From: Slackia sp.
GTDB lineage: Bacteria; Actinomycetota; Coriobacteriia; Coriobacteriales; Eggerthellaceae
NCBI GenBank assembly: GCA_030532315.1
Contig: JAUNLI010000001.1
Coordinates: forward strand, 1 to 44,910
Direction: 5' to 3'
Length of the DNA: 44,910 bases
In this document: positions 1 through 23,447 of the stretch, piece by piece
Position numbering within the stretch: the stretch's first letter is position 1
How the letters are laid out: every line of letters begins with the position of its first letter
Made by a program: the position numbers and the translations under genes
The notes under the pieces: generated by a model
What the model was told of the DNA's origin: nothing
Databases searched by the model: none
Seen by the model: only the letters and a program-made list of their open reading frames with translations

Positions 1-1871
1 AGCACGCGATCGAGCAGGTAAGACCCTGCTGCTTCGCCGCCGTGCCCCAGGTTGTAAATCATCGAGGCGCGAGCCGCTTCGATAGATGCGCGCCAGCGTT
101 CAGGATTTGCGACCATCTCATCGACCACATCGCCCAAGCCATCCAGTGCATCGACGCAAAGCGACACGCCGATGACGTTGCGCAGGGAAATGTCAGTCGG
201 CTCGATGCCAAGCTCTTCCCAATGCGGATTGCACGTCTTCATGGGAGTGTCCACGAAAACGCAGGGTTTCAGCGTGGCGAACGCGAACTCGCACGAAATC
301 GAAGACCAATCGGTGATCAGCACGTCGGCATCGAAGATCGAATCGGACGTGCTGAAGTCTTGCTCGAAATACAGCTCGTCGGCCGAAAAGGCAGCAAAGC
401 GCTTCTGCAAGGCCTCCCAACGCGCGCGGTAGCGTTTGGTGTATTCAGGGTGCGGGCGCACGATTACACGGTAGCCGCGTCCGAGCAAAGGCGTTATCAC
501 CTGATCGGCGCAAATGTCTAGAATGCAGTCTTCCTGCCACGAAGGAGCAAGCAGCACCACCGGACGTTTATAGGCCGGCTTCTCGCGCTTCGCATATGCC
601 GCGATCTGACGATCGAGCAGGTCGTATCCGCACTCCACGAGCGTGCGCGGGCGAATCTCGCGCAGCTCTTCCATGCGTTCGTATTCGCGTTTCTGGTGAG
701 GGCCCACGCACAGAATCGCATCGTAGTGGTCGAGCGATTCGCGCGAGGCAACCAAATGCGCCGAAGTCATATGGTGGAACATATAGACGTATTCGACATC
801 TTTGCGAACGTAGGAGCGCTTGATATAGAAGTTCTCCAGATCGTCGAGCGTGGTCACCACCACGTCGCAGTCGAGCTTCATCATGAGCGTGATCAGGCGC
901 CGCTCGCCGATGTAGTACGGCATAAGGCGCGGATGGGTTTCGTGCAACGCGAACACCTGGTCGGACGGGTCATTCGTAATGTAGTGAATCGTCATGTCCG
1001 AATTGGCAAGCAGCCACTGAATGGCGCCTTCGAAATACTTGTAAAAGCCGCTGCGCTCGGAATAGAACACGATATGTTTACCCACCACGTTCATGAAACG
1101 CTTGTAATCCTGCTTTTCGCGCTTGGCAAGCGGATCGCGTTTGTACCACGGAGCCTTACGCGCGGCGAAGGCATTGAGGGCCTCCAGCTCGACGCGGCTT
1201 TGCGCAAGCTCGGTGTAGTCGATGTGCTTGGCAGGCTTGATGCACACGTTGCACAGCGCCTGTACGACGATAGACATCAAGTTCGAACAAATCCAGTAAA
1301 ACGCCATGCCTGCGGCAACATAGACGCCCAAAACGAGCGAAAGCACGATGGAAAGCCCGTTGGTGGTGTTCTTCTCCATCTTGGACTGTTCGCGCTGCAG
1401 CGGGTTGATGCGGTTTTGCGCGAACCCCATAATCACGGCGGAAAGAGCCGCCAAAACGGGCATGACCCACGATGCGCCGCCGTCTTCGATAGGCACCATG
1501 CCTAAAAACTCGGTGCCGGGCGCGCCGTTGCCGGTAATATCGCGCACCACCTCCACCAGGCCGAACAGCACCAGAATTTGCACCGCCAACGGAACAAGCG
1601 AGAGCAGCGGATGGTAGTGGTGCTTCTTATTGAGCTCGGTCTGTTTCTCGCCGATGGTTTCGGCGTCGCCGAAATACTTCACCTTGATGCGGTTGAGTTC
1701 GGGCAGAAGCTTCACCATGACGATGCTATTCCACTGGCACCACAGCGCCAGCGGCATAAGCAAGACTTTGATGATGACGGTGAACAGCAGAATGGCCATC
1801 CACCAATTGCCCGTCAAATCGTAGCAAGGTTGAACGATATACGAAAACAGCTGTGCAAGCGCCTCTAACAT
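1..1871 (-). CDS. YidC/Oxa1 domain fused to CDP-glycerol glycerophosphotransferase (partial, runs off left edge)
   Basis: The frame is open from the ATG at 1871 to the window edge (about 623 codons, 3' end missing). Residues 1-211 look like a Gram-positive YidC/Oxa1 insertase: a first membrane segment ending in TVIIK, an amphipathic linker (LLPELNRIKVKYFGD), then PLLSLVPLAVQ and hydrophobic segments to about 208. Lys35 sits where SpoIIIJ-type YidC proteins carry the groove arginine. From about residue 250 the protein is TagB/TagF-like: FYSERSGFYKYFEGA, a VRPHPEY motif, and LITDWSSISCEFAF near residue 520. Such enzymes transfer glycerol- or ribitol-phosphate from CDP-alditols in teichoic acid synthesis. 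The last visible residues resemble a family C-terminus, so little is probably missing. The ATG overlaps the upstream acyltransferase stop by 7 nt, so the two are translationally coupled. Fusion order is seen; substrate is inferred. Confidence 0.85.
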   Translation of the reverse strand, partial: MLEALAQLFSYIVQPCYDLTGNWWMAILLFTVIIKVLLMPLALWCQWNSIVMVKLLPELNRIKVKYFGDAETIGEKQTELNKKHHYHPLLSLVPLAVQILVLFGLVEVVRDITGNGAPGTEFLGMVPIEDGGASWVMPVLAALSAVIMGFAQNRINPLQREQSKMEKNTTNGLSIVLSLVLGVYVAAGMAFYWICSNLMSIVVQALCNVCIKPAKHIDYTELAQSRVELEALNAFAARKAPWYKRDPLAKREKQDYKRFMNVVGKHIVFYSERSGFYKYFEGAIQWLLANSDMTIHYITNDPSDQVFALHETHPRLMPYYIGERRLITLMMKLDCDVVVTTLDDLENFYIKRSYVRKDVEYVYMFHHMTSAHLVASRESLDHYDAILCVGPHQKREYERMEELREIRPRTLVECGYDLLDRQIAAYAKREKPAYKRPVVLLAPSWQEDCILDICADQVITPLLGRGYRVIVRPHPEYTKRYRARWEALQKRFAAFSADELYFEQDFSTSDSIFDADVLITDWSSISCEFAFATLKPCVFVDTPMKTCNPHWEELGIEPTDISLRNVIGVSLCVDALDGLGDVVDEMVANPERWRASIEAARASMIYNLGHGGEAAGSYLLDRV

Positions 1872-2908
1872 AGGTCAGCTTCCTTCTTCTTGTCGAACCA
1901 GCCGAAAGCTGCATCGAACACGGCCTTCGCGCCCTTAACCGCGGTGGAATCAATCAACCACGCCGCCGCAAGCGAAAGCGCAAAAGCGACGACAGACAAA
2001 AGAACATGAACACCCATGGTGGAAAGCCCCTGGTCGAACATGAAAAACTTCTGAATGGCAAGCAGTACCATCATATGGCACAGATAGATACCGAACGAAT
2101 GCTTCGCCACAAACGATACGAACGAGAACTTCGGCAGCTTTTCGCCCCAGTCGAGCAAGGCGAGATAAAGCCCCACCGCCATGATCGTGTAAAGCGGAGA
2201 GGTTTCGTAAGCGTACAGCGAGAAGCCCGCATACTGTACGGCCACGTTGAGCACAAAGCACACAAGCACCGCCCACTTCAGCGCACGACGCACCTTCGGA
2301 TCCGAAGCGAAACGTTCTATGAGCACACCGAGACAGAACGCGAAGCCGAATCCGCTGAAAAGATATCCCCAGGAAAACCCGATGCCGGCGTTGTCGAGCA
2401 CGGTCAGCACCGTGTTGAACCCGATGCCGATGCCGATGAACACCTTCACCTCGAAATCGGACATGCCGTCGAACGCGCGAGCGAGAAACGGCGCCACGAG
2501 CAGAAAACCGACCAGCGTGAAAACGAACCAGTATTCGATGCTCGCAAAATCGGAAAGCGAACCTTTCACGAAATAGGCGGCGGCATGACCCATGCCTTGC
2601 CAGTTGCCCCACAGGTCGTACACGGTGCGGATGAGGAAATAGACCAGCACGGGAACAATGATATTGCGCGCCTTGCTGCGATAGAACTTCTTCAAGGCAG
2701 CATCGCCTTCACGCACGCGCAGGTTGAACTTGCCCGACATCATGAAAAACAGCGCGTTGCCCGCGAAAAACAGCGTTCCGCACGCCAAAAACCACAGATT
2801 CCCAATCGTGGAACCCGTATCGACCACCACGCGGCAATGCACCGCGACCACGAAAAAGATTGCTACGGCCCTTACCAGGTCGTAGCCGAAAATGCGCGCC
2901 TGCGCCAT
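1865..2908 (-). CDS. Acyltransferase-3 family membrane protein (OafA/WecH-like)
   Basis: This 347-residue polytopic protein begins MAQARIFGYDLVRAVAIFF and has the hallmark first segment with a conserved histidine (VVAVHCR) followed by about ten hydrophobic segments. Acyltransferase-3 proteins O-acetylate or O-acylate surface polysaccharides at the membrane, so it probably modifies the glycan made by the neighbouring glycosyltransferases. The ATG at 2908 was chosen over longer in-frame starts because AAGGGGG lies about 7 nt upstream and the conserved family start follows at once. The gene ends overlapping the start of the YidC-glycerophosphotransferase gene. Donor and acceptor cannot be told from sequence. 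Confidence 0.85.
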   Translation of the reverse strand: MAQARIFGYDLVRAVAIFFVVAVHCRVVVDTGSTIGNLWFLACGTLFFAGNALFFMMSGKFNLRVREGDAALKKFYRSKARNIIVPVLVYFLIRTVYDLWGNWQGMGHAAAYFVKGSLSDFASIEYWFVFTLVGFLLVAPFLARAFDGMSDFEVKVFIGIGIGFNTVLTVLDNAGIGFSWGYLFSGFGFAFCLGVLIERFASDPKVRRALKWAVLVCFVLNVAVQYAGFSLYAYETSPLYTIMAVGLYLALLDWGEKLPKFSFVSFVAKHSFGIYLCHMMVLLAIQKFFMFDQGLSTMGVHVLLSVVAFALSLAAAWLIDSTAVKGAKAVFDAAFGWFDKKKEADLC

Positions 2909-5365: not shown

Positions 5366-7468
5366 CTAGGCAACGATGCGATACAGGCGCATGTCGCCTT
5401 CGCTCAAGACGACTTCAAAGCCGGGCGTTTCGTCAGTGATGTCGACGATGCCCTGCCAGGCTTCTTTGCTCACGCCATGAACGGGAAGGAAGCGTCGCGC
5501 CTCGCCGTTAGGGCCGCGCGGCTCGACTTCTCCCTGGTCAAGCACAAGCACATATTCCGCACCAAGGCGCTCGATTGCTTCTTTCACCTCAGCATTCGTC
5601 GCAATTTCATCAAGATGCCCGCGAATCAAGAAGCTGTCTTCGCTTTCCCCCGACTCAAGGCCGTACCCGGTGAAATAGCGGTAATAGGTGCGCATGCCGT
5701 CAAGACCGTACAAGAAGATGCTGCCGTCGTCGGGCTCGTTGATGATCAGTTCGTCTTCGCCAACCACCTTCTGCACCTCGTCGACGAAGCGACGCTCGTC
5801 ATCGCCCAACATGTTCAGGGGAACCTCGGCGTTTTGTTTTTCAACCCGATCGCCCACCACGCTCGATGCGCTTTCGACGCGATGGACGCCCGCGAAATCG
5901 AACGCAGGAAACGCCACCGCAGTCGCCAGCACCAACGGCACTGCGGCCAAGGCCGCACGGCCGTAGCGCAACGCGTCGTCGCCCGGTGCGGCAATGCGCA
6001 TGACCAAGGCCCTCATCCCCCGCGCAATCGTGGCCGCGCCCAGGGCAGCAAGCGGCACAGCGAACAACGCCGCCATAGCAGCCGTACGCCACTGGTCGGT
6101 ATACCAAAAGCCCGACAGCAAATGCTTCAAAAAGCCGTTCGTCGCCATGTCGAAAAAGTAGATGACGCAGGCGAATGCATAGGAGAACACGATCCAGCGC
6201 CTAGAACGATCGACGAGCGCCGCCACGACGCCCGTCGCAACGACAAGTGCCAGAATCGGCTGGGCGGGCGTGTCCATAAACGACAGCAGCCCGATGTTGG
6301 CAAGCGCCTGGACGGGTTCGGCTTTCGCAGGCCAGTCGAAGCCGACCACGGCGCGCAGAAACGGCATCTTATACATAACGCACCAGATGCCCGCAATCAC
6401 GACAATGGCAAGAAGAGCAAACGCGACCTTCGCCCACGGGCGAGCGGAATCAGGGATGCGTTTCGCGCCGGCAAGACGCATGGCCAAGACAACGCAGTAC
6501 GGAGCAAGGAACACACCCAGACTGAACACGGCATTAGGCTGCGAAAGGGCCAATGCGACAAGCGACGAAACGAAAACGAACCCAAGCACGGCGCGCTGCC
6601 AAACAACAAGCCCGCGTGCGAACATTTTGACGAACACCGCAGCGGCCGCAGGAATGAGCACATAGGAAAGCAGATTGGGATAAAGCGGGCCGAATGTAAG
6701 AAAACCCCAGGGAAAAGCAGCAAAAAGAACCGAAACGAATGCGCCGGCATAAACAACGGCGCGCCTGCCTGCAAAAAGAGTGCGCAGCAAGACGAACATG
6801 CTCGCGGGCAGCACCATCGCGGACAGGAAGGCGTTCACCGCGTTGGCGGCCGTCGCGCACGTCGCGCCCGAGAAGGTCATAGCCATGGCGACAAGGCAGT
6901 GCCAAGCAGAGGGATAAAATGCCGAATCGTTGGCAAACGGATCGATGGCCTTGTCTTCAGGAAGAGGATAGGAGGTCGTGGTAAACGACGAATAATTCCC
7001 CGCCTCGACAAACGCCTGCACCGAACTTAAGTGGTGAACGTTATCCCAGGTTTGCAAAAACGAGTCGGGCGACGAAAGGTTGGCGACGAACACCGTGGAT
7101 ACTGCAACGAAACCGACGGCAATGTACAGAACGAGAATCGTCCAATCGGCGGACAAGCGGCCCGAGAAAAACGACCCGCACGAATCGATTCGCGCGAAAC
7201 GCGGCTTCGACGAGCGAAAAAGCACGAATGAGACAAGCCACGCCGCGACGCCGACCGCCAGACACGGCACAAAAAGCGTGCTCCACGACGCAAAAACCCC
7301 CAAAGACGGGTACAGGGCGGAAAGCACGATGTAAAGAGGAATGGTCACAAGCGGCGCGCAACAAAATGCAACGACCGATTCTGCACGCAAGGCTTTCAAA
7401 ACAAAGAAACCGGGCGCATATAAAAACACCGCGGCTGCAAGCATCGTAAGGAAAAAACCCGTCCACAT
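5366..7468 (-). CDS. Large polytopic membrane protein, DUF6541-like
   Basis: A 700-residue integral membrane protein. About 500 residues of hydrophobic helices are followed by a soluble C-terminal domain of about 150 residues (for example EDELIINEPDDGSIFLYG). This matches the DUF6541 family, which is common in actinobacterial polysaccharide clusters and resembles GT-C glycosyltransferases in layout; no GT-C catalytic motif could be assigned with confidence. It is the first gene of the minus-strand run toward position 1 and has its own promoter candidate at 7578-7607. The ATG at 7468 is preceded by GAGGTAGG. Possible roles are a lipid-linked-sugar glycosyltransferase or a ligase; this is inference. 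Confidence 0.75.
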   Translation of the reverse strand: MWTGFFLTMLAAAVFLYAPGFFVLKALRAESVVAFCCAPLVTIPLYIVLSALYPSLGVFASWSTLFVPCLAVGVAAWLVSFVLFRSSKPRFARIDSCGSFFSGRLSADWTILVLYIAVGFVAVSTVFVANLSSPDSFLQTWDNVHHLSSVQAFVEAGNYSSFTTTSYPLPEDKAIDPFANDSAFYPSAWHCLVAMAMTFSGATCATAANAVNAFLSAMVLPASMFVLLRTLFAGRRAVVYAGAFVSVLFAAFPWGFLTFGPLYPNLLSYVLIPAAAAVFVKMFARGLVVWQRAVLGFVFVSSLVALALSQPNAVFSLGVFLAPYCVVLAMRLAGAKRIPDSARPWAKVAFALLAIVVIAGIWCVMYKMPFLRAVVGFDWPAKAEPVQALANIGLLSFMDTPAQPILALVVATGVVAALVDRSRRWIVFSYAFACVIYFFDMATNGFLKHLLSGFWYTDQWRTAAMAALFAVPLAALGAATIARGMRALVMRIAAPGDDALRYGRAALAAVPLVLATAVAFPAFDFAGVHRVESASSVVGDRVEKQNAEVPLNMLGDDERRFVDEVQKVVGEDELIINEPDDGSIFLYGLDGMRTYYRYFTGYGLESGESEDSFLIRGHLDEIATNAEVKEAIERLGAEYVLVLDQGEVEPRGPNGEARRFLPVHGVSKEAWQGIVDITDETPGFEVVLSEGDMRLYRIVA

Positions 7469-7577
7469 AAGGGAAACCTACCTCGGATCAATGCCGCTCA
7501 CCGATGGCCGAAAGACGAAAGACGACGCCAGCGCAAGCAATCGGACGCGAGCGAAAAAGCAAAACATGAACCGTCCA

Positions 7578-7607
7578 AATATACACTATGCCCGTCGTGC
7601 TTGTCCT
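7578..7607 (-). promoter_or_regulatory. Candidate sigma-70 promoter for the 7468-to-1 gene run
   Basis: On the minus strand AGGACA (7602-7607) is followed after 18 nt by TATATT (7578-7583). Its -35 overlaps the -35 of the divergent plus-strand promoter, so the two may compete or share control. Confidence 0.45.
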
Positions 7608-7629
7608 TATATGCACGCTTCGCTATATT
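7601..7629 (+). promoter_or_regulatory. Candidate sigma-70 promoter for the GT2/DUF2304 pair
   Basis: TTGTCC (7601-7606), a 17-nt spacer and TATATT (7624-7629) form a good sigma-70 match about 50 nt before the ATG at 7682. It lies back to back with the minus-strand promoter. Confidence 0.55.
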
Positions 7630-7681
7630 CATAACACGTGATACCATGGGTATTTCTGAATTCAACCGAGAAAATGGACCT

Positions 7682-8365
7682 ATGAAACTTCTTGTCATCA
7701 TTCCCGCATACAACGAGCAGGACTGCATCGTCCAAACCGTCGAAGAGCTGAGGCAGACCGCCCCTCAGTACGATTACGTCGTCGTCAACGACGGATCGAA
7801 AGACGCCACCAAGAGCCTGTGCATCGAGCACGGCTTCAACCTGCTCGACTTGCCCGTCAACATCGGCTTGACCGGCGGCTTTCAAGCCGGCATGAAATAC
7901 GCCCTACGTAACGGCTACGATGCAGCCGTGCAGTTCGATGCCGACGGACAGCATATGCCCGCCTACATCGAAAAGCTTGCCGAAGAAATGCAGCGCACGA
8001 ACGCCGACATCGTAATCGGGTCGCGCTTTGTCACCGAGAAGAAATCGGCCTCGATGCGCATGGTCGGATCACGCCTGATTTCGGCCATCATCAAAATCAC
8101 CACCGGCACCTCGATCTGCGACCCCACGTCGGGCATGCGTTTGTACAATCGCGCCATGATCGAACGCTTCAGCAGCAAATCCGATTTCGGCCCCGAACCC
8201 GATTCGATCGCCTACCTTGCACGCAAAGGCGCCGTCGTGCGCGAAGTGCAGGTGAGCATGCGCGAGCGCCAAGCGGGCGAAAGCTACCTCACCTTCACCC
8301 GCTCTATCGAATACATGATGCGCACCTGCATCTCCATCCTGTTCGTCCAGTGGTTTAGGAGCTAG
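7682..8365 (+). CDS. GT2 glycosyltransferase, dolichyl-phosphate-mannose-synthase-like
   Basis: A 227-residue enzyme starting MKLLVIIPAYNEQD, with NDGS at 36-39 and the metal/sugar site FDADGQH at 85-91. The short single-domain layout matches polyprenyl-phosphate sugar synthases (DPM1/GtrB type), which load a sugar onto undecaprenyl phosphate for use outside the membrane. It lacks the C-terminal membrane anchor often found in that family; the co-transcribed DUF2304 membrane protein 3 nt downstream probably supplies it. The ATG at 7682 is the family start; the Shine-Dalgarno is weak (GGA). A lipid-linked donor from this enzyme could feed the DUF6541 protein encoded divergently. Confidence 0.88.
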   Translation: MKLLVIIPAYNEQDCIVQTVEELRQTAPQYDYVVVNDGSKDATKSLCIEHGFNLLDLPVNIGLTGGFQAGMKYALRNGYDAAVQFDADGQHMPAYIEKLAEEMQRTNADIVIGSRFVTEKKSASMRMVGSRLISAIIKITTGTSICDPTSGMRLYNRAMIERFSSKSDFGPEPDSIAYLARKGAVVREVQVSMRERQAGESYLTFTRSIEYMMRTCISILFVQWFRS

Positions 8366-8368
8366 CCC

Positions 8369-8725
8369 ATGAACATCACCTTGCGCGTGTTTTTGGTCGT
8401 CAGCGCCGTCGCGGTTCTTTATTTCGTGGTACGCAAGATCAAAAAGTCGAAATTCGAAGCCTCCGATTCGATCTTCTGGCTCTTTTTCATCGCCGTGCTC
8501 GTGGTTCTGGGCGCATTTCCCCAGGTTTCCTACGGACTGGCAAACATTCTGGGGTTCGAATCGCCTTCGAACTTCATCTTCTTATGCGTCATCGCAATCT
8601 TGCTGATCCGTGTGTTCTCGCTCACGGCCAAGGTGTCGCTTCTGCGCACCAAGCTCGATTCGCTTGTCCAGGAAGTCGCGCTCGACAGAAACGAGCGTGC
8701 GAAAAACAACGGGGATGCATCGTAA
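8369..8725 (+). CDS. DUF2304 small membrane protein
   Basis: A 118-residue protein with three predicted membrane segments (residues about 4-20, 33-55 and 65-83) and a charged, probably coiled C-terminal tail. DUF2304 proteins typically sit directly after a DPM-like GT2 gene, as here (3-nt gap). The Shine-Dalgarno AGGAG lies inside the end of the upstream gene, so the two are translationally coupled. It likely anchors or partners the GT2 enzyme; biochemical role unproven. Confidence 0.85.
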   Translation: MNITLRVFLVVSAVAVLYFVVRKIKKSKFEASDSIFWLFFIAVLVVLGAFPQVSYGLANILGFESPSNFIFLCVIAILLIRVFSLTAKVSLLRTKLDSLVQEVALDRNERAKNNGDAS

Positions 8726-8865: not shown

Positions 8866-10023
8866 TTAGCCGCGGGCCTTCTCGAATGCGGCCACGGCAT
8901 CACAAGCCGTGCGTTTCCACGAATAACGTTCGCGTACGCGATCGTAGCATCGCCTGCCCTGCTCAACGAGGCGCTCCTTGTCGAGCGCAGCCTTTGCAAG
9001 CGCCGCGGCAATCGTCTCAGGGCGCGCGTCGTCAAGCACGGTTCCAAACGACGCATCGGGGATCATCTCGGCAACACCGCCCACGTCGGTAATCGCAGCA
9101 GGGGTGCCAAGCGCCGAAGCCTCCAAAAGCGACGTCGAAAAACCCTCGGAGCGCGTGGGCAGGCAGAACAGGTCGGACTCGCCCATCAACGCAGCCACAT
9201 CGCTCGCATCAAGCTTGCCCGCCACGACGATGTTTGCGAGCCTTGCTTCGCGAATGCGGCCCTCGAGCGGTCCGGTTCCTGCCATGACCAGCTTCGCCGC
9301 GACGTTTTGCGCCTCGAGCATACGCATGGCTTCGATTAAAGCATCCACGCCCTTCTCGGGAATGAAGCGCCCGACGAACGACACGAGCAGCGCATCGTCT
9401 GCCACGCCGTATTCCGCGCGAAACGAACGACCCGATGCCTTGGCGCAAAACGCGTCAGCATCGATCGCATTGCTCAACACGCCACATCCTTCAATATGAA
9501 ACGTCTTAAGCCAAGCAAGGCCTTTACTCGAAACCGCATAGAAGTCGGGGCGATAATGCTTGACGCGCGCCGTGATCAGATGCTCATAGGCAACCACCGC
9601 CTTGTCGAGCAAGGCGTTGCCGAACGTCAGATAGGCCGAACCGTGCTCGCACAGCACCGCACGCATTCCCTGGCGTTTCGCAAACTTCAAACCGAGCAGC
9701 GAATGCAGATAGAAACGTGTGTTCACCAACACGCCGTCGAAAGAACGCGCTTCCACTTCGCTCAGCAAACGCCTGAATTCGGCGTTTTTGCGCGGGACGG
9801 GCATACGGCCGCCGATTAAGGGAAAACACGGAAGGCGCACCACCTCGACGCCCGGAGCCGCCTGCTCGACGCCCGCAGGCGCCGAAGCGTCGGTCGTCAC
9901 CACGACGACCTCGTGACCAAGCCGCGCAAGTTCTCGCGCCAAGTTGTCGGTATATTTCTCCGCCCCGCCGACATTAGGAAGGAACTGGGCTGAAAATATC
10001 GCGAAGCGTTTCGGGGAGCCCAT
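8866..10023 (-). CDS. GT4-family glycosyltransferase
   Basis: A 385-residue GT-B enzyme. The N-terminal acceptor-domain motif PNVGGAEKYT is followed by a Rossmann-type donor domain with SFVGRFIPEKG and the E-x7-E site in EGFSTSLLEASALGTP. GT4 enzymes are retaining transferases using nucleotide sugars at the cytoplasmic face. The ATG at 10023 shares its first base with the stop of the upstream licD gene (TAATG), so the pair is translationally coupled. This suggests that the sugar added here and the LicD modification belong to the same repeat unit; inference. Confidence 0.88.
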   Translation of the reverse strand: MGSPKRFAIFSAQFLPNVGGAEKYTDNLARELARLGHEVVVVTTDASAPAGVEQAAPGVEVVRLPCFPLIGGRMPVPRKNAEFRRLLSEVEARSFDGVLVNTRFYLHSLLGLKFAKRQGMRAVLCEHGSAYLTFGNALLDKAVVAYEHLITARVKHYRPDFYAVSSKGLAWLKTFHIEGCGVLSNAIDADAFCAKASGRSFRAEYGVADDALLVSFVGRFIPEKGVDALIEAMRMLEAQNVAAKLVMAGTGPLEGRIREARLANIVVAGKLDASDVAALMGESDLFCLPTRSEGFSTSLLEASALGTPAAITDVGGVAEMIPDASFGTVLDDARPETIAAALAKAALDKERLVEQGRRCYDRVRERYSWKRTACDAVAAFEKARG

Positions 10024-10877
10024 TACGCAACACCGCCCGCATGCCATACGGTTCCGTCGCCGAAATCGAGGAATTCGGGAAGGTGCGTGCGACGGTCTTC
10101 AGGCGCAGGAATCTGCCGCCAGTCGCCGTACATGTTCTCGAGATACTGTTCGGGTTTCGCGGCGATCGGAAGAGTATGCCCGCAGAATGACACGCGCGCA
10201 GGGGGAACCATGTCCTGCTTGCGACAAGGCTTCATGGAAGGCCACGAGAGCAGCATGTATTCGTCGGACGCGGGCCCTTCGAACGAACGAGACGCATCGA
10301 AACGACGTTCGATGGCCGCTCGGCTCGTGAACGCGCGTACAAAATAATGCGCCATGCGGCAGCCGAAACGCTCGATCGCGCCCATGACGCCCTTGTGCGG
10401 AACCGTGATCGTCTTGGCATGATACAGATAGGAAACCGACTGCCACGTGCGCGCCGTCTTCAACTGACGGGCGCGCTGGGCGGCATCGGCGGCAAGCACG
10501 TCATAGGGAAAGATGTCGACGAAAATTCCCTGGTCGCAGTCGGCCTCAATGGTTTCCTTCGTATGAAACGCCGTGCCGTTCTTGTACACCTTGGCAAACA
10601 GTCCCGCGAACGATTCGTTGTTTTCGAAGGTCTGCAAGGAATAACCCTCGGGCAAGCCGTCCTGGGCAAGCTCGACGAAGTGCTCGTAATGCTCGCGCAT
10701 CATGCCGATGTCGATGTCGTCGTCCCACGGAATGAACCCGCCGTGCCGCATGGCTCCAAGCGCCGTGCCTGAATCCATGAACCATTCGATTCCGTGCTCT
10801 TCGCAAAACCCGTCGATCGCAAGAAGAATATCGAGCTCTGTCTCTTGCAGCTTCTTCAACGCCTCGGCGTCATTCAT
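10023..10877 (-). CDS. licD: LicD-family phosphotransferase
   Basis: A 284-residue LicD protein with the family block DSGTALGAMRHGGFIPWDDDID (given here only by its parts: SGTALGA at 36-42, RHGGFIPWDDDID at 44-56), containing the acidic metal-binding WDDDID. LicD proteins transfer phosphocholine (or other phospho-groups) from CDP-choline to sugars of wall or lipoglycan polymers. The lic operon at 21575-23356 in this window would supply CDP-choline. GGAG lies 8 nt before the ATG. It is paralogous to, and divergent from, the gene at 11188. Phosphocholine as the substrate is inferred from context. Confidence 0.9.
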   Translation of the reverse strand: MNDAEALKKLQETELDILLAIDGFCEEHGIEWFMDSGTALGAMRHGGFIPWDDDIDIGMMREHYEHFVELAQDGLPEGYSLQTFENNESFAGLFAKVYKNGTAFHTKETIEADCDQGIFVDIFPYDVLAADAAQRARQLKTARTWQSVSYLYHAKTITVPHKGVMGAIERFGCRMAHYFVRAFTSRAAIERRFDASRSFEGPASDEYMLLSWPSMKPCRKQDMVPPARVSFCGHTLPIAAKPEQYLENMYGDWRQIPAPEDRRTHLPEFLDFGDGTVWHAGGVA

Positions 10878-11187
10878 AATTCAACTCCATCGCTCGTGAA
10901 CGCGCATGCTGTCAGCGCGTAATACGCTTCTTTTAGGCGACGAGGCGGAAAGCCCCACACCCCGTTCTTTCATCGATGCATTATAGGCAAATTGACGGAA
11001 TGACATCTGCCGCAAAAGCCGCCTCCGTAACCACAGAAAAGCGTCGGACGCGCGTCTCCATGCGATCTTGCACCGATACACTCCCAACGATGCTGTTGTT
11101 TTTGTTCGTATCCGCCATTTCTGCGCCGTTGCCCTATCATTGATGATTTGCAGAAAGCATATTCACCTTTGCATCACAGGAGGCTTC
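10878..11187. other. Divergent intergenic region between the two licD genes
   Basis: About 310 nt with no convincing gene. A minus-strand TATAAT (10980-10985) about 100 nt before the licD start is the best -10 candidate, but no good -35 precedes it. AGGAGG at 11178-11183 is the ribosome-binding site of the plus-strand licD. Confidence 0.5.
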
Positions 11188-12024
11188 GTGAAAAGACGGC
11201 TATCCTCGGCTGAAATAAAGAAAATCGAACTGGACATTCTCCTCGAGCTCGATCGCATTTGCACAGAGAACGGACTGACGTACCTTCTTGCCTACGGGAC
11301 CTGCCTGGGCGCCGTCAGGCACGGCGGCTTCATCCCTTGGGACGACGACATTGACGTGTTCATGCCGCGCGACGACTACGAAAAGCTCTACAACCTGTTC
11401 CGCGAGGGAATGGAAACCCCTTACAAGCTGGTGTCCTATCGCGACGAAAGCTCGATTTACCAGTTCTTCAAGCTCGTAGACCCCGCCACCGAATCATACG
11501 AGACATTCGTCGGGAAAAGCCACCCTATCGGCCTTTGGGTGGATATCTTCCCGCTTGAACGCGTAAATCCCTCTTCGGAAAAGCAACTTCGCACCCTGAT
11601 GAAAAAACACGAGCGCATTGGCCTTGCGCGCAGTTTCGCCGTGGCGGATTCCTCCGTCGCCTCGACGCCTGCGATCAAACTGGTGAAAAAAATCGTCTGC
11701 CCGATCGCACGCACGCTCTTTAACGTGACGAAGCTCAACCGACGCCTCGAGGAAAACGCGCTGGCTTTGCCGAAAGCCACCGAAGCCGACATGTCTGCCC
11801 CGACTGAAGAGGGGTATGTATGCGACCTGCTCGGCGACGCCCACGTCATCGACGCGTCGATTCTCTTCCCCGTACGCAAGGCCCCCTTCGAAGGACACGA
11901 GCTGCCCATTCCAGGACGCGCCGAAACGTATCTCGACATCAACTACGGCGATTGGAAGGCACTGCCGCCCGAAGAGGAGCGCCATCTGCACTTCCCCGAG
12001 GCATACGCCGTCGAAAAGGAGTAG
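11188..12024 (+). CDS. licD: LicD-family phosphotransferase (second copy)
   Basis: A 278-residue LicD protein with YGTCLGAVRHGGFIPW and WDDDID at 51-56, the same residue numbers as in the divergent copy. The GTG at 11188 was preferred because AGGAGG lies 4 nt upstream and the alignment with the paralogue starts there; an ATG 15 codons earlier has no ribosome-binding site. The stop is 3 nt before the flippase start. C-terminal regions differ from the other LicD, which suggests different acceptor sugars, so one repeat unit could carry two phospho-substituents (inference). Confidence 0.9.
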   Translation: MKRRLSSAEIKKIELDILLELDRICTENGLTYLLAYGTCLGAVRHGGFIPWDDDIDVFMPRDDYEKLYNLFREGMETPYKLVSYRDESSIYQFFKLVDPATESYETFVGKSHPIGLWVDIFPLERVNPSSEKQLRTLMKKHERIGLARSFAVADSSVASTPAIKLVKKIVCPIARTLFNVTKLNRRLEENALALPKATEADMSAPTEEGYVCDLLGDAHVIDASILFPVRKAPFEGHELPIPGRAETYLDINYGDWKALPPEEERHLHFPEAYAVEKE

Positions 12025-14500: not shown

Positions 14501-16657
14501 CTACCAGCAACCCTTGATTAGGACGGTTTGCTGGTAGAGCTCGGCTTTGTTTGCGTTGTTGAAACAAGCCGAAATGCAATTCTGCGGATAAATCTGGTGC
14601 CACATCCTGTTCTCGTACGGGGTGTTGCCCCAGAAGAATCCGATATGGCAATCGATTGCGCCATTGGTTTTGAAGAAGATGATGTCGCCCTTGTCGGCCT
14701 TGCCGCTGGCAAGCATACTCGCCACGCTGTCGAACGTATACATCTCCGCACCGTGTTCGATAGCGTATCCATACCAGCGCCATGCGTTGATATAGCTTCC
14801 GCCGCCAGGGCCGGTCGGCCACGGAGAATAGCTCTGCGTCCAGCCGATGGCGTCAAGATCGCCCGCGCCACCCGTCATGGAATAGGCATGGGCAACAAAC
14901 CCCGTGCAGTTCATGCCCGCAAAACCGTCCCAGCGCGGCGCTCCGTTCGGATACAAACACGTGTTCAGGCTGAACCCGCTCGAATACGGCGTGCCCAGAT
15001 AATACCAATCGTCCTCATGCGACCATAGCCATTCGACAAGCCTCGTACGCGACACGCCGAGCACCGAACCAGTGTTTTCAACCCAACGTCCGCTCAGATC
15101 AAGCTTGTAAGCCGATCCGCCGATATTGATCCAGCCCGTAGCCATGGCACCCGAGCCGGAAAGCCAATACCAGCCGTCATCAAGCTGCAGCCATCCGGTT
15201 GCCATGATGCCCGTCTCAAGATCAAGCCAATACCACGCGCCGCCCACATACTGCCAGCCCGTTGCCATCGATCCGTCATCGCGGCAGTAATACCACGATC
15301 CCGATTCGTTAATCCAGCCCGTCTGCATGAAGCCCGCGCTGTCGAACTTGTACCAGACGCCGTCGACCTCCGTCCAGCCGATGGCCATGGCACGCGTTTC
15401 CTCATCGAACCAGAACCACCAGCCTCCGATATGCTGCCAGCCTGATTTCGCTACGCCGTCTGAACCGAGCCAATACCACACGCCTTCGTCAAACAGCCAG
15501 CCTTCGCCTAAAGCCCCGTGCTCATCGAAGAAATAGCGCGTGCCGTCATGCTCGAACCAGCCGGTGGCAAGAATTCCGCCTTTGCCGACATAGTAGGTCT
15601 TGCCCGCAACGCTTTGCCATCCCATCTCCTCGAAACAGATCGCTCCGGTCGAATCCGCGAAATGCAGTTCGCCATCGAGCAGAACCGACCCTTTCGCCAA
15701 CGCGCCCGATTCATCGAACCAATACTTCTTCCCATCGAGCTCGACAAGCCCCGTGGCCATCGCGTTGGTGGCGGGGTCGAGCCAATACGTTCGGCCCGCA
15801 ACATCAAGCCAACCGCTTGCAAGCGCGCCCGACCCGTCGGCGTAATACCAGGCGCCATCGAACGAACACCATCCGTCGATTGCAACCGCACCTTGCGAGG
15901 GTGCGCAGTATTTGAAGCCATCGACTTCGAAAAGCCCCGTGGCCATGAGGCCTTCATGCGCGGGATCGAGCCAATACCAGACGCCGTCGATATACGCCCA
16001 ACCGTATTGCAAAGCGCCCGTGCCATCGATCAGATACCAGCCGCCCTCAACGAACACCCAGCCGGTCTCCATGACACCGTCAGCACCAAGATAGAAACGC
16101 ACCTCGTTCACATCGACCCACGAATCGTGCGCCATGGCTCCCGTTTTCGGGTCGAGCCAATACCAGTCTCCCCCTGCGAACAGCCACCCCGCATACAAGC
16201 TTCCCGAAGGATTCGCGTAATACCATATGCCCTCGTAAAGCGCCCAGCCATCCTGGACAAGAGCACCCGACGTGGAGCTTACATAGCGAACGCCGTCAAC
16301 CTCGAAAGGACCCGTGGCCATCGCGCCACCGTTTGCAGGATCGAGCCAATAGCGCGAATCGCCGACATACAGCCAACCCGTCGAGGCCGGGGCGCCGTCG
16401 GCTTCGGCCCAATACCACAAACCGTCGCGATAGTTCCAACCACGCACGAGCGCAACGGAAGAATCGCTTTGGTCGCTCTCGACGCCTTCTCCCCCTTCGC
16501 CGCCAAGCGCCGCGGCGGTTTCGCCCGACGCCTCGAGCACCGCCCTGTTTTCGAAGTCGCCGAACCCTTCGTCGGCATATGCGCTTTGCGCAACCAGCAA
16601 TGTCATCGCAAAAAACAACACACCGGCCATGTGTCGTATCGGCAAAACCCTGCGCAT
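14501..16657 (-). CDS. Secreted choline-binding-repeat protein with C-terminal NlpC/P60-like cysteine peptidase
   Basis: A 718-residue exported protein. Residues 1-28 form a signal peptide ending AQSAYA. An acidic linker leads to about 22 tandem repeats of about 20 residues (GW...G.WYY/WLD...G.MATG type, from about residue 73 to 520), as in choline-binding (CW_binding) modules. The last 190 residues look like an NlpC/P60/CHAP-type peptidase: NCTGFVAHAY gives a candidate catalytic Cys584 and CHIGFFWG gives His671. It probably cleaves peptidoglycan peptides while held on a choline-decorated polymer. The ATG at 16657 was chosen for its signal peptide; a GTG two codons upstream (16663) with AAAGGGG 6 nt away is an equally good start. 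Confidence 0.85.
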   Translation of the reverse strand: MRRVLPIRHMAGVLFFAMTLLVAQSAYADEGFGDFENRAVLEASGETAAALGGEGGEGVESDQSDSSVALVRGWNYRDGLWYWAEADGAPASTGWLYVGDSRYWLDPANGGAMATGPFEVDGVRYVSSTSGALVQDGWALYEGIWYYANPSGSLYAGWLFAGGDWYWLDPKTGAMAHDSWVDVNEVRFYLGADGVMETGWVFVEGGWYLIDGTGALQYGWAYIDGVWYWLDPAHEGLMATGLFEVDGFKYCAPSQGAVAIDGWCSFDGAWYYADGSGALASGWLDVAGRTYWLDPATNAMATGLVELDGKKYWFDESGALAKGSVLLDGELHFADSTGAICFEEMGWQSVAGKTYYVGKGGILATGWFEHDGTRYFFDEHGALGEGWLFDEGVWYWLGSDGVAKSGWQHIGGWWFWFDEETRAMAIGWTEVDGVWYKFDSAGFMQTGWINESGSWYYCRDDGSMATGWQYVGGAWYWLDLETGIMATGWLQLDDGWYWLSGSGAMATGWINIGGSAYKLDLSGRWVENTGSVLGVSRTRLVEWLWSHEDDWYYLGTPYSSGFSLNTCLYPNGAPRWDGFAGMNCTGFVAHAYSMTGGAGDLDAIGWTQSYSPWPTGPGGGSYINAWRWYGYAIEHGAEMYTFDSVASMLASGKADKGDIIFFKTNGAIDCHIGFFWGNTPYENRMWHQIYPQNCISACFNNANKAELYQQTVLIKGCW
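15085..16441 (-). repeat. About 22 tandem GW/choline-binding-type protein repeats
   Basis: Coding repeats of about 60 nt; each encodes GW, a short turn, an aromatic pair such as WYW or WYY, and an acidic-Gly turn. Several have decayed first residues (GPF, GLF, DSW). Confidence 0.85.
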
Positions 16658-16846
16658 GTCCACAGCTTTCCCCTTTCTCCTCTTTTCTGCCATGGTATCG
16701 AAAACGGTTGCAACCGCAAGCTCAACGTATTCGCAATCCGTTCGATAATGCCAGGTCAACAGCGAACGGCAGTAAAAAGAACGCGCCTTCGATGCGCACC
16801 GCACAAGCGCACGTCGAAGACGCGTTGTTCGAGCCCCTATAAACGT

Positions 16847-19786: not shown

Positions 19787-19817
19787 GATGCCTCCCGATA
19801 AACGAGAACAGAAAAGC

Positions 19818-19839
19818 GTTCGGATATTGTAGCCCGAAC
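19818..19839 (-). promoter_or_regulatory. Inverted repeat around a candidate -10 of the autolysin gene
   Basis: GTTCGG (19818-19823) and CCGAAC (19834-19839) flank 10 nt containing TACAAT on the minus strand (19826-19831), about 40 nt before the GTG. The arrangement fits a repressor operator over a -10 box. The -35 match (TGCAGA) is poor. Confidence 0.45.
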
Positions 19840-19868
19840 AAGCGCTGCTCTGCACTCCAGAAACAAAG

Positions 19869-19914
19869 CAGGCCCTTCGGTCGGGCAAAGTAATGCCGCA
19901 AACCGTAGGGCCTG
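19869..19914 (-). terminator. Candidate terminator of the lic operon
   Basis: CAGGCCCT pairs with AGGGCCTG, extended by CGG/CCG across one mismatch, with a long loop; the minus-strand downstream side is T-rich (TGCTTTGTTT). It lies after the last lic-operon gene and before the autolysin promoter. Confidence 0.5.
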
Positions 19915-21574: not shown

Positions 21575-23356
21575 CTACGCCTCCGACACGCCCGTTTCGT
21601 ACCACGCAAGCGTCTTTTCGAGATACTCCGCCGCATACCGGTAATAGATATAGAGCCATTCGCCCACGCATTCGCCCTGCGCCTCTTTCAGCAACGACCA
21701 CACATACCAGCACCAACCCGCAAGCGCCACATAGGCGAAGTTGTGACGAAGCTCCTCAAACGTCGGCGTGCGACCGAAATAAAACGCCAGCGCCTCTTTC
21801 GCCTGCTCGAAACTCAGCTCGCAGCACACCGTGAACGTACCGAAGTCGCTCGCGTAATCGGCCATGCCCGAATATTCCCAGTCGATCAGATACATCTTGT
21901 CGTGCTCATCGATCAGGAAATTGAGCGAGAAGAAATCATTATGCGTCAGGCAGCGACGCGCCTGATCGGCATCGGCGAAACGCTTCAAACGCGCTGCAGC
22001 ATCGGCCATTTCGGCAAAGCCCGCAATGTCGATCCTGCCTTTGATTTCCTTCAGATAGGACGTGTATTTCTGCGATTCTTCGTAGAAATCGAACGTGCGC
22101 TGCGTTTTCATCGGAGACGCATGCAGCGTATGCGCCATCTCCATCGCACGCCTGAGCTGGCCGGGATCGTTCGGGTCGAGCTGGCGCGCATGAGCGACGA
22201 AACGCGAAATCTTCCACCCCTGCGCGGGGTCTTCGAAAATATAGGTATCGTCAAGCCCGAGGTCTTTCGCCAGCGACTGCGCCACCAATTCGGCCTCGCG
22301 ATCGATAATCAAATCGGTGCCAACGCCCGGATGACGATAGACGTATTCGTCGTCGCCCACGGCGAAATGGCACGACAGATTCGTCAGGCCCTGCTTCAAC
22401 GGGTAGACGTCATGGATATCGTCGACATCACAACCCAGGACGGCAACGATGTTGTCGAAAACCTCGGAATCGACGTTGCGCAGGAAATACGGATCGAAGT
22501 CGCGCAGCTCGTCGAGCGAGTCGAATTCGTTGATCACTCCGCTTTCGTAAGCACGCACCACCATGTCGAACTCTTTGATATGGTCGACATAGATTTCCTC
22601 CCAGAGCTTTCCCGCCGTGGCAGGAAGGTCGTATTCCTCTTCCAGAATTTCGACGAACCTATGCGAGAAGGCGCGATCGAAATATACATGGCCCAGCATG
22701 ATCTGCGCATCATGCCCGCCGACGCTCACCGCTTCGATGCATCCGCCCGCACCCTGCTTGATGCACCATTCCTCGGTTTCGCCCTCCACGAAAACGGATG
22801 CATAAAACGCCTTGTAGACATAGGGTTCGAAGGGGTTGACCGTGAAATAGTCGTCCGACGAGCAGACGTACGTGTTGCCGAGCTTCTCGCGCACGGCCAT
22901 CAGCGACGAATTGTTGTTGCGCGATGCGTATTCGTCGTTGACCACGATTTTCACGCCGAATTGGCGTTCAAGGTAGAAGAAATGCTCTTTTTTGTAACCC
23001 ACCACCACGGTGATGTCGGTTATGCCCGCCTCTTGCAGCTGGCGGATCTGGCGCTCGATCAAAACCTCGCCTCGAACGACGAGCAGGCCTTTGGGCTTCT
23101 CATAGGAAATAGGCGCGAAGCGCGACGAGAGACCCGCGGCCATAATCACGGCGTTTTCCACCTTGTACGCGCCAAGCTCTTGCAAGCCATGCGGCGTCGG
23201 CGCATAGCCCTCGACCAGACCCTTGTCTGCGAGGCTTTTCAGCGCACCGTTCACGCTTCCCAAAGAAATTCCCGTCGCGGCTGCCAGCGCGCGCTGATTT
23301 TCGCAAGGCTTCAGTACAAGCGTCTTGAGCGCCTTGAATTCGTTTTCCGTCAGCAA
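21575..23356 (-). CDS. Winged-helix / phosphocholine cytidylyltransferase / choline kinase fusion (LicC-LicA)
   Basis: A 593-residue three-part protein. Residues 1-60 look like a MarR-type winged helix (NQRALAAATGISLGSVNGAL). Residues 68-300 are a nucleotidyltransferase: MAAGLSSRFAP at 72-82 and KPKGLL at 87-92 match LicC, which makes CDP-choline. Residues 310-590 are a choline/ethanolamine kinase: HNDFFSLN with His472, Asp474 and Asn479, then IDWEYS with Asp492, as in LicA. It would phosphorylate choline and activate it for LicD. A TTG at 23356, 4 nt after GGGGAGGGG, is the best start; ATG/GTG codons up to 23416 lack such a site. The N-terminal DNA-binding fold suggests self-regulation through the upstream inverted repeat. 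Confidence 0.9.
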   Translation of the reverse strand: MLTENEFKALKTLVLKPCENQRALAAATGISLGSVNGALKSLADKGLVEGYAPTPHGLQELGAYKVENAVIMAAGLSSRFAPISYEKPKGLLVVRGEVLIERQIRQLQEAGITDITVVVGYKKEHFFYLERQFGVKIVVNDEYASRNNNSSLMAVREKLGNTYVCSSDDYFTVNPFEPYVYKAFYASVFVEGETEEWCIKQGAGGCIEAVSVGGHDAQIMLGHVYFDRAFSHRFVEILEEEYDLPATAGKLWEEIYVDHIKEFDMVVRAYESGVINEFDSLDELRDFDPYFLRNVDSEVFDNIVAVLGCDVDDIHDVYPLKQGLTNLSCHFAVGDDEYVYRHPGVGTDLIIDREAELVAQSLAKDLGLDDTYIFEDPAQGWKISRFVAHARQLDPNDPGQLRRAMEMAHTLHASPMKTQRTFDFYEESQKYTSYLKEIKGRIDIAGFAEMADAAARLKRFADADQARRCLTHNDFFSLNFLIDEHDKMYLIDWEYSGMADYASDFGTFTVCCELSFEQAKEALAFYFGRTPTFEELRHNFAYVALAGWCWYVWSLLKEAQGECVGEWLYIYYRYAAEYLEKTLAWYETGVSEA

Positions 23357-23408
23357 GAAACCCCTCCCCGTATTCACCATCACAACGGTCCGCCTGATTC
23401 GAACCATT

Positions 23409-23447
23409 ATGTTCAATTTTTCTTGAAGATATCATTACTTTGAACAT
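23409..23447. promoter_or_regulatory. Inverted repeat in the lic/tag divergent region
   Basis: ATGTTCAA (23409-23416) and TTGAACAT (23440-23447) form a perfect 8-nt inverted repeat separated by 23 AT-rich nt, about 50 nt upstream of the LicC-LicA start. CATAAT on the minus strand (23406-23411) overlaps one arm as a possible -10. It is a candidate operator, perhaps for the winged helix of the fusion protein. Confidence 0.5.

Follow-up and report, generated by a model that had tools for sequence, protein, structure and literature searches.

The first gene of the window analyzed here, a 44,910-nucleotide stretch of DNA from Slackia sp., encodes a YidC/Oxa1-like membrane domain and a TagF-like transferase in a single protein. 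We propose, with a probability of roughly 40%, that this fusion forms the inner half of a three-module machine acting on both faces of the membrane, which would build a surface polymer or decorate it. The three modules, a YidC-like domain, a TagF-like transferase, and a membrane-anchored LtaS/YejM-like phosphotransferase, recombine yet stay together as a recurrent set, and the fused YidC domain represents a distinct accessory lineage, apart from the housekeeping insertase, that is strongly constrained.

Domain architecture of the fusion gene

The minus-strand frame starts with an ATG at position 1871 and is stop-free down to position 3. As the window begins with base 1 of the contig (C99 of genome G000), the gene is truncated there and, judged from its homologues, lacks only the final ~15 residues. 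Its features are as follows.

3..1871, minus strand: YidC-TagF-like fusion gene, 623 codons, with the C-terminal ~15 residues past the contig edge
1242..1871, minus strand: YidC/Oxa1-like membrane domain, residues 1 to 210 (60KD_IMP, AF2 model, Foldseek match to 6al2, hydropathy)
1086..1241, minus strand: linker between the domains, residues 211 to 262, with low pLDDT at 235 to 241
3..1085, minus strand: TagF/TarL-like GT-B transferase domain, residues 263 to 623 (Glyphos_transf, VIA-align, family profile)
1767..1769, minus strand: Lys35 codon, at the conserved groove Arg position of YidC (alignment)
774..776, minus strand: His366 codon, invariant in both fusion types
450..452, minus strand: His474 codon, in the invariant RPHP motif (alignment)

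Both Pfam domains exceed their cut-offs, 60KD_IMP with 99.6 bits at residues 23 to 208 (cut-off, 35) and Glyphos_transf with 32.9 bits at residues 379 to 539 (cut-off, 22.1), and the NCBIfam model yidC_oxa1_cterm is also above its cut-off (89.4 versus 84.3). This bears out the preliminary description, which had recognized YidC-like and TagF-like parts in one uninterrupted frame. Its estimate of ~210 residues for the YidC part also stands, although the transferase starts only at about residue 263, after the linker. The closest named relative of the fusion is found in Slackia faecicanis (86%).

Phyletic distribution

The fusion is present in 47 of 149 relatives, and a strong match to it was detected in 79 of the 398 genomes of the class, a count in which a few weaker matches are stand-alone transferases. 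The fusion is thus conserved among relatives. An assembly join or a frameshift between the domains, which had been named as a potential source of the fusion, is ruled out by the same 79 genomes, where the frames are mostly full-length and open and several of the genomes consist of one contig; many fusions are uninterrupted frames in one- or two-contig genomes. Within the window's genus, the distribution is patchy, with the fusion in only 3 of 12 genomes (G000, G001, and G006).

Outside the class, the fusion was found in 2 of 395 genomes of the class of G149 (Bacilli) and in 1 of 392 genomes of the phylum sample of G149. One of the two outside-class carriers is an Erysipelotrichaceae MAG (locus L046). 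At locus L110, on the same contig, the fusion is flanked by an Acyl_transf_3 gene and a gene for a choline-binding-repeat protein. The Erysipelotrichaceae fusion at L110 suggests transfer between phyla. Searches of plasmids and viral contigs gave no fusion match.

The LtaS/YejM-like outer enzyme

In the 20-kb neighborhoods of the fusion, only one gene family regularly recurs directly beside it. Its members are proteins of ~700 residues that start with an N-terminal hairpin, AYVDPSVMTYTIQALAGVAVALSA, followed by more membrane segments (hydropathy indicates about seven hydrophobic segments) and then by a sulfatase-superfamily domain. PF00884 is above its cut-off in the partner at L048:11309-13384, and the best Foldseek matches of the partner model are YejM/PbgA, with LtaS also found among other members of the superfamily. 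True sulfatases have a Cys or Ser nucleophile; in the partner, the likely nucleophile, to judge by the motif alone, is the invariant T363 of an (M)IPT motif.

We read 30 loci with the YidC-transferase fusion (referred to as type A); 3 of them, including the window, are at a contig edge, and 27 were counted. The partner gene immediately follows the fusion gene on the same strand, in most cases overlapping it, in 18 loci, is fused with it into a single protein of 1,357 to 1,401 residues in 6, lies upstream in 1 (L059), and is absent from beside the fusion in 2 (L056 and L110). With these counts, the notion that the partner is always downstream is rejected. At the genome level, the partner is found in 45 of the 47 genomes with the fusion versus 0 of the 102 others (raw counts that ignore shared ancestry and joint transfer), and in the two exceptions, G000 and G115, the fusion gene lies at the edge of a contig. 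In the window, the partner gene would lie just beyond base 1 of the contig. In Slackia faecicanis, the fusion is encoded at L033:10001-11917 and its outer partner at L033:11907-13979.

In L052 and L053, three partners are found in tandem after one fusion. The fragmented genome G123 (contigs C143, C162, and C169) has seven matches to the outer enzyme and a single match to the fusion. Together, the tandem partners and the seven matches in G123 suggest that a single inner unit serves several outer enzymes.

Module exchange and the YxDP hairpin

The three modules occur in three layouts: a YidC-transferase fusion with a separate outer enzyme, a single protein of ~1,400 residues, and a fusion of YidC with the outer enzyme accompanied by a separate transferase. 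This last layout, type B, consists of a YidC-sulfatase fusion of ~900 to 1,100 residues, in some of which the sulfatase match is under its cut-off, and an adjoining separate Glyphos_transf gene. The following type-B fusions, with Asn or Ser at the groove position, were recorded.

L118:5519-8455, YidC-sulfatase fusion
L119:5816-8803, YidC-sulfatase fusion
L121:1574-4339, YidC-sulfatase fusion
L122:4765-7773, YidC-sulfatase fusion
L123:8437-11616, YidC-sulfatase fusion
L124:9111-14618, YidC-sulfatase fusion
L127:8854-11601, YidC-sulfatase fusion
L128:7002-9791, YidC-sulfatase fusion
L129:8932-15482, YidC-sulfatase fusion

The TagF-like genes adjoining type-B fusions carry a YIDPGTGS hairpin, and in L128 a triple fusion adjoins the type-B pair. 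In each type, the Y[IV]DP hairpin marks the unfused enzyme: type A carries it on the outer enzyme and type B on the separate transferase. It occurs in 42 of 490 neighborhood proteins, every one of them a module of the system. As the simplest reading, we infer that the unfused enzyme uses it to dock on the YidC domain. In 246 genomes from other parts of the phylum, a search for type B yielded only short housekeeping-type YidCs.

Some type-B loci also contain nucleotidyltransferase and aminotransferase genes, an arrangement reminiscent of the aminoethylphosphonate loci found in related bacteria (PMC6697681). Beside the type-B pair of L122, the region L122:9050-15144 encodes a nucleotidyltransferase-aminotransferase fusion, an octopine-dehydrogenase-like protein, an amidohydrolase, and a LicC-LicA-like protein, possibly an aminoethylphosphonate or related donor pathway.

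The YidC-like domain

YidC is an essential protein insertase. The fused domain has five hydrophobic segments, as judged by hydropathy, and a C1 cytoplasmic helical hairpin, and its part of the AF2 model of the window protein (mean pLDDT of 82.7, with 12 sequences) matches 6al2 over 213 columns with 21% identity and an rmsd of 4.1 (Foldseek). Lys35 is aligned with the groove Arg of the E. coli YidC structures and of the housekeeping YidC of the same genome. The replacement of this Arg by Lys35, already noted in the preliminary description, holds throughout types A and A2: Lys is found at this position in 43 of 43 fusions (32 of type A and 11 of the long-loop type A2) versus Arg in 19 of 19 housekeeping YidCs. 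Type-B domains have Asn or Ser there in 11 of 11 cases and have lost the positive charge. The change from Arg to Lys is conservative; E. coli YidC still works with R366K in a sensitized background, and the positive charge is not always essential (PMC8920935). K35, Q98, and other polar residues are invariant in the fused domain, and the Pro residue of the QxP motif is lost in type A and kept in housekeeping and type-B domains. The basic C-terminal tail, which contacts the ribosome, is present in the housekeeping copy and absent from the fusion, where the transferase domain takes its place.

The expectation that a housekeeping YidC would be encoded elsewhere in the genome proved correct, as the gene was found on another contig in an rnpA-yidD-yidC-jag-rsmG locus in which the neighbors were named by resemblance.

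L001:1387-2157: housekeeping yidC of the same genome, beside yidD and rnpA, with jag- and rsmG-like genes on the opposite side

A separate housekeeping-type YidC is encoded in nearly all of the 36 fusion genomes examined. In the phylogenetic tree, the YidC domains of types A and A2 form one clade (support values of 100/99) and those of type B a second one (100/100), and neither groups with the housekeeping YidCs of the class. As to whether the fusion types arose independently, a joint A/A2/B clade is not rejected by the AU test (p = 0.72) in this tree with its long branches.

Within the same type-A gene, the mean pairwise identity is 0.73 for the YidC domain versus 0.61 for the transferase part. 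The fused YidC also exceeds the housekeeping YidC in identity (0.72 versus 0.53) in 53 of 55 same-genome pairs, a comparison that is open to distortion by horizontal transfer, whereas the within-gene one is not. The higher conservation of the YidC domain relative to the enzyme in the same gene argues against a passive anchor and disfavors the version of the preliminary description in which the YidC part was merely a membrane platform.

Proposed mechanism and alternative roles of the YidC domain

From the established topology of the respective families, the TagF-like domain would be cytoplasmic and the alkaline-phosphatase-superfamily domain would be outside. The TagF-like domain would take a phospho-alcohol or a similar group from a nucleotide-activated donor and load it onto an acceptor that is a lipid or is linked to one. 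The YidC-like groove, acting as a dedicated scramblase or flippase, would then let the loaded product cross the bilayer, and the outer enzyme, docked on the YidC domain via its YxDP hairpin, would move the group to surface glycans. More tentatively, the YidC fold may have been turned from an insertase into a dedicated translocator of lipids or lipid-linked products, with the YxDP hairpin as a docking tag. In vitro, lipid scrambling has been found with purified insertases, YidC and Oxa1 among them, which makes translocation by the YidC groove physically plausible; scrambling being a general property of insertases, this does not single out the fused YidC (PMC10491306). The earlier suggestion that the YidC part handles a lipid-linked polymer instead of inserting proteins is a plausible prediction that fits the wider module pattern.

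The main rival to translocation is that the YidC domain serves as a dedicated insertase or chaperone, which inserts and folds the multi-spanning outer enzyme and then stays bound to it. This reading, which we consider rather unlikely, is consistent with the retention of the YidC core, the C1 hairpin, the groove Gln98, and a positively charged groove residue, with the activity of the R366K variant in the sensitized E. coli background (PMC8920935), and with the tight linkage of the fusion to an enzyme that has about seven hydrophobic segments. However, a catalyst tied in a 1:1 ratio to an enzyme or to its own client would be wasteful, the basic C-terminal tail of the housekeeping YidC is missing, and all 11 type-B domains (N or S) are without the positive charge, even though that charge is not always essential.

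A less likely possibility, to which we give a low probability, is that the YidC domain is a mere membrane anchor or lipid-interface platform for the TagF-like transferase. The fusion does set the active site at the inner leaflet, and TagF-family enzymes act on membrane-linked substrates, which counts in favor of an anchor. But conservation is higher in the membrane domain than in the catalytic one, with K35 and Q98 invariant; it is retained where the fused enzyme is the outer one; and type-B transferases carry a simple YxDP hydrophobic segment instead, so that the YidC fold is unneeded for anchoring.

The TagF-like transferase and its donor

In VIA-align comparisons, the transferase model matches TagF (Z score of 21.8, 328 residues, rmsd of 4.9) and TarL (Z score of 20.7). 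UDP-GlcNAc 2-epimerases score nearly as high as TagF and other GT-B enzymes are within 1 Z unit, so that the match at the level of the GT-B fold is not specific. A profile of type-A and type-B transferases finds Cps3D, a TagF-like capsule polymerase (E value of 4.7e-9), and TarL (5.8e-5), whereas a sequence search of the PDB with the L046 transferase alone gave no convincing match; the Glyphos_transf score in L046 is 60.9 bits. His366, the RPHP motif (residues 472 to 475), Asp521, and Ser523 are invariant in type-A and type-B transferases. TagF presumably uses two catalytic histidines, and His366 and His474 are, by their invariance, candidate counterparts.

TagD makes CDP-glycerol. It is above the cut-off in just 3 of 24 fusion genomes tested, with no match in the window's own genome (83.5% complete) or in several fusion genomes of one or two contigs. 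Given its absence from most of the fusion genomes tested, the donor is probably not TagD-made CDP-glycerol and may be another activated phospho-alcohol. Thus, of the name "teichoic-acid glycerophosphotransferase" given in the preliminary description, the TagF/TarL-like fold stands and the glycerol-phosphate donor is not supported.

The same TagD counts, including the one- and two-contig genomes, make it quite improbable that the protein is a genuine teichoic-acid polymerase or primase using CDP-glycerol, joined to its YidC domain by chance and disseminated through horizontal transfer. TagF is indeed the best match among solved structures, the locus is a surface-polymer cluster (LicD, flippase, and glycosyltransferases), and the occurrence within the genus is patchy, but a chance fusion leaves the recurring three-module pattern unexplained. 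Finally, an artefact of assembly or annotation, for which one could cite the cut at the contig edge and the 83.5% completeness of the genome bin, has been refuted by the genome surveys (79 of 398 class genomes, one-contig genomes among them), and this or an ordinary YidC paralogue with no special role, given that the fused YidC domains form one well-supported lineage in the tree, has a negligible probability.

Genomic surroundings

The fusion gene lies in a cluster of surface-polymer genes, of which the following are relevant here.

1865..2908, minus strand: Acyl_transf_3 membrane acyltransferase, directly upstream, with a 7-base overlap with the fusion start
10023..10877, minus strand: LicD-family protein of the same surface-polymer cluster
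11068..12024, plus strand: second LicD-family protein
21575..23416, minus strand: fusion of a LicC-like nucleotidyltransferase with a LicA-like choline kinase (Pfam NTP_transf_3, APH, and Choline_kinase)

An acyltransferase gene is also found directly upstream of the fusion in L048 (same BLAST cluster) and in L110 (by Pfam). The LicC-LicA-like protein, which has an N-terminal winged-helix region, is a possible source of a CDP-activated donor, and its gene and the two LicD genes look like a phosphocholine-decoration locus. As an obligate partner, LicA/LicC is a weak candidate, being present in 42 of the 47 fusion genomes but also in 50 genomes without the fusion. Two large choline-binding-repeat proteins are encoded between the LicD and LicA/LicC genes (14501-16804 and 16847-19888), one of them with Amidase_3 and glucosaminidase domains. 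At 5366-8725, adjacent genes for a DUF6541 membrane protein, a GT2 enzyme, and a DUF2304 protein resemble a three-component glycosylation set.

Comparison with known systems

The fusion shares with YidC/Oxa1/Alb3 insertases the Pfam domain, the five-segment core, the C1 hairpin, the groove Gln, and a basic groove residue. It differs from them in having Lys for Arg and a fused enzyme, in lacking the basic C-terminal tail and, in type A, the Pro of QxP, and in occurring in genomes that keep an extra housekeeping copy. With TagF/TarL/Cps3D (PF04464), it has in common the fold, and the invariant His366, RPHP, and D521/S523 are candidate shared residues, but its membrane domain is a YidC fold and TagD is mostly absent from the genomes tested. 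The partner, like LtaS, EptA/MCR, and YejM/PbgA, has several membrane helices followed by an alkaline-phosphatase-superfamily domain; unlike them (12 to 19% identity), it has an extra N-terminal YxDP hairpin and is near-obligately associated with a YidC-TagF protein.

Three-component lipid-linked glycosylation combines an inner glycosyltransferase, a small flippase, and an outer GT-C enzyme. The likeness to the system proposed here would be in logic only (an inner loading enzyme, a translocator, and an outer transferase), as the modules come from other families and the translocator would be a YidC fold. The window also resembles the pneumococcal licABCD/tacF locus in having LicA/LicC-like, LicD, Polysacc_synt flippase-like, and choline-binding proteins, but LicA-LicC is also found in 50 relatives without the fusion, and we know of no YidC fusion in the pneumococcal phosphocholine teichoic-acid locus.

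Implications

At the title and abstract level of the open-access literature, we found no description of a YidC-enzyme fusion system, and a three-module envelope system with a recruited YidC lineage in Coriobacteriia is apparently undescribed. To our knowledge, no bacterial process is known to exploit the lipid scrambling of insertases. A YidC fold fused to enzymes that are predicted on both membrane faces makes the use of its groove for moving lipids or polymers testable. The matches to individual domains are insufficient for naming such fusion genes insertases or glycerophosphotransferases, which should be kept in mind in genome annotation. The module set would also constitute an envelope-decoration system of common gut Coriobacteriia (Slackia, Eggerthella, and Adlercreutzia), in which the YxDP transmembrane motif may have a role. 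If the proposed mechanism is true, the YidC fold would be a natural bacterial lipid flippase, and other YidC paralogues encoded near polymer genes may be flippases too.
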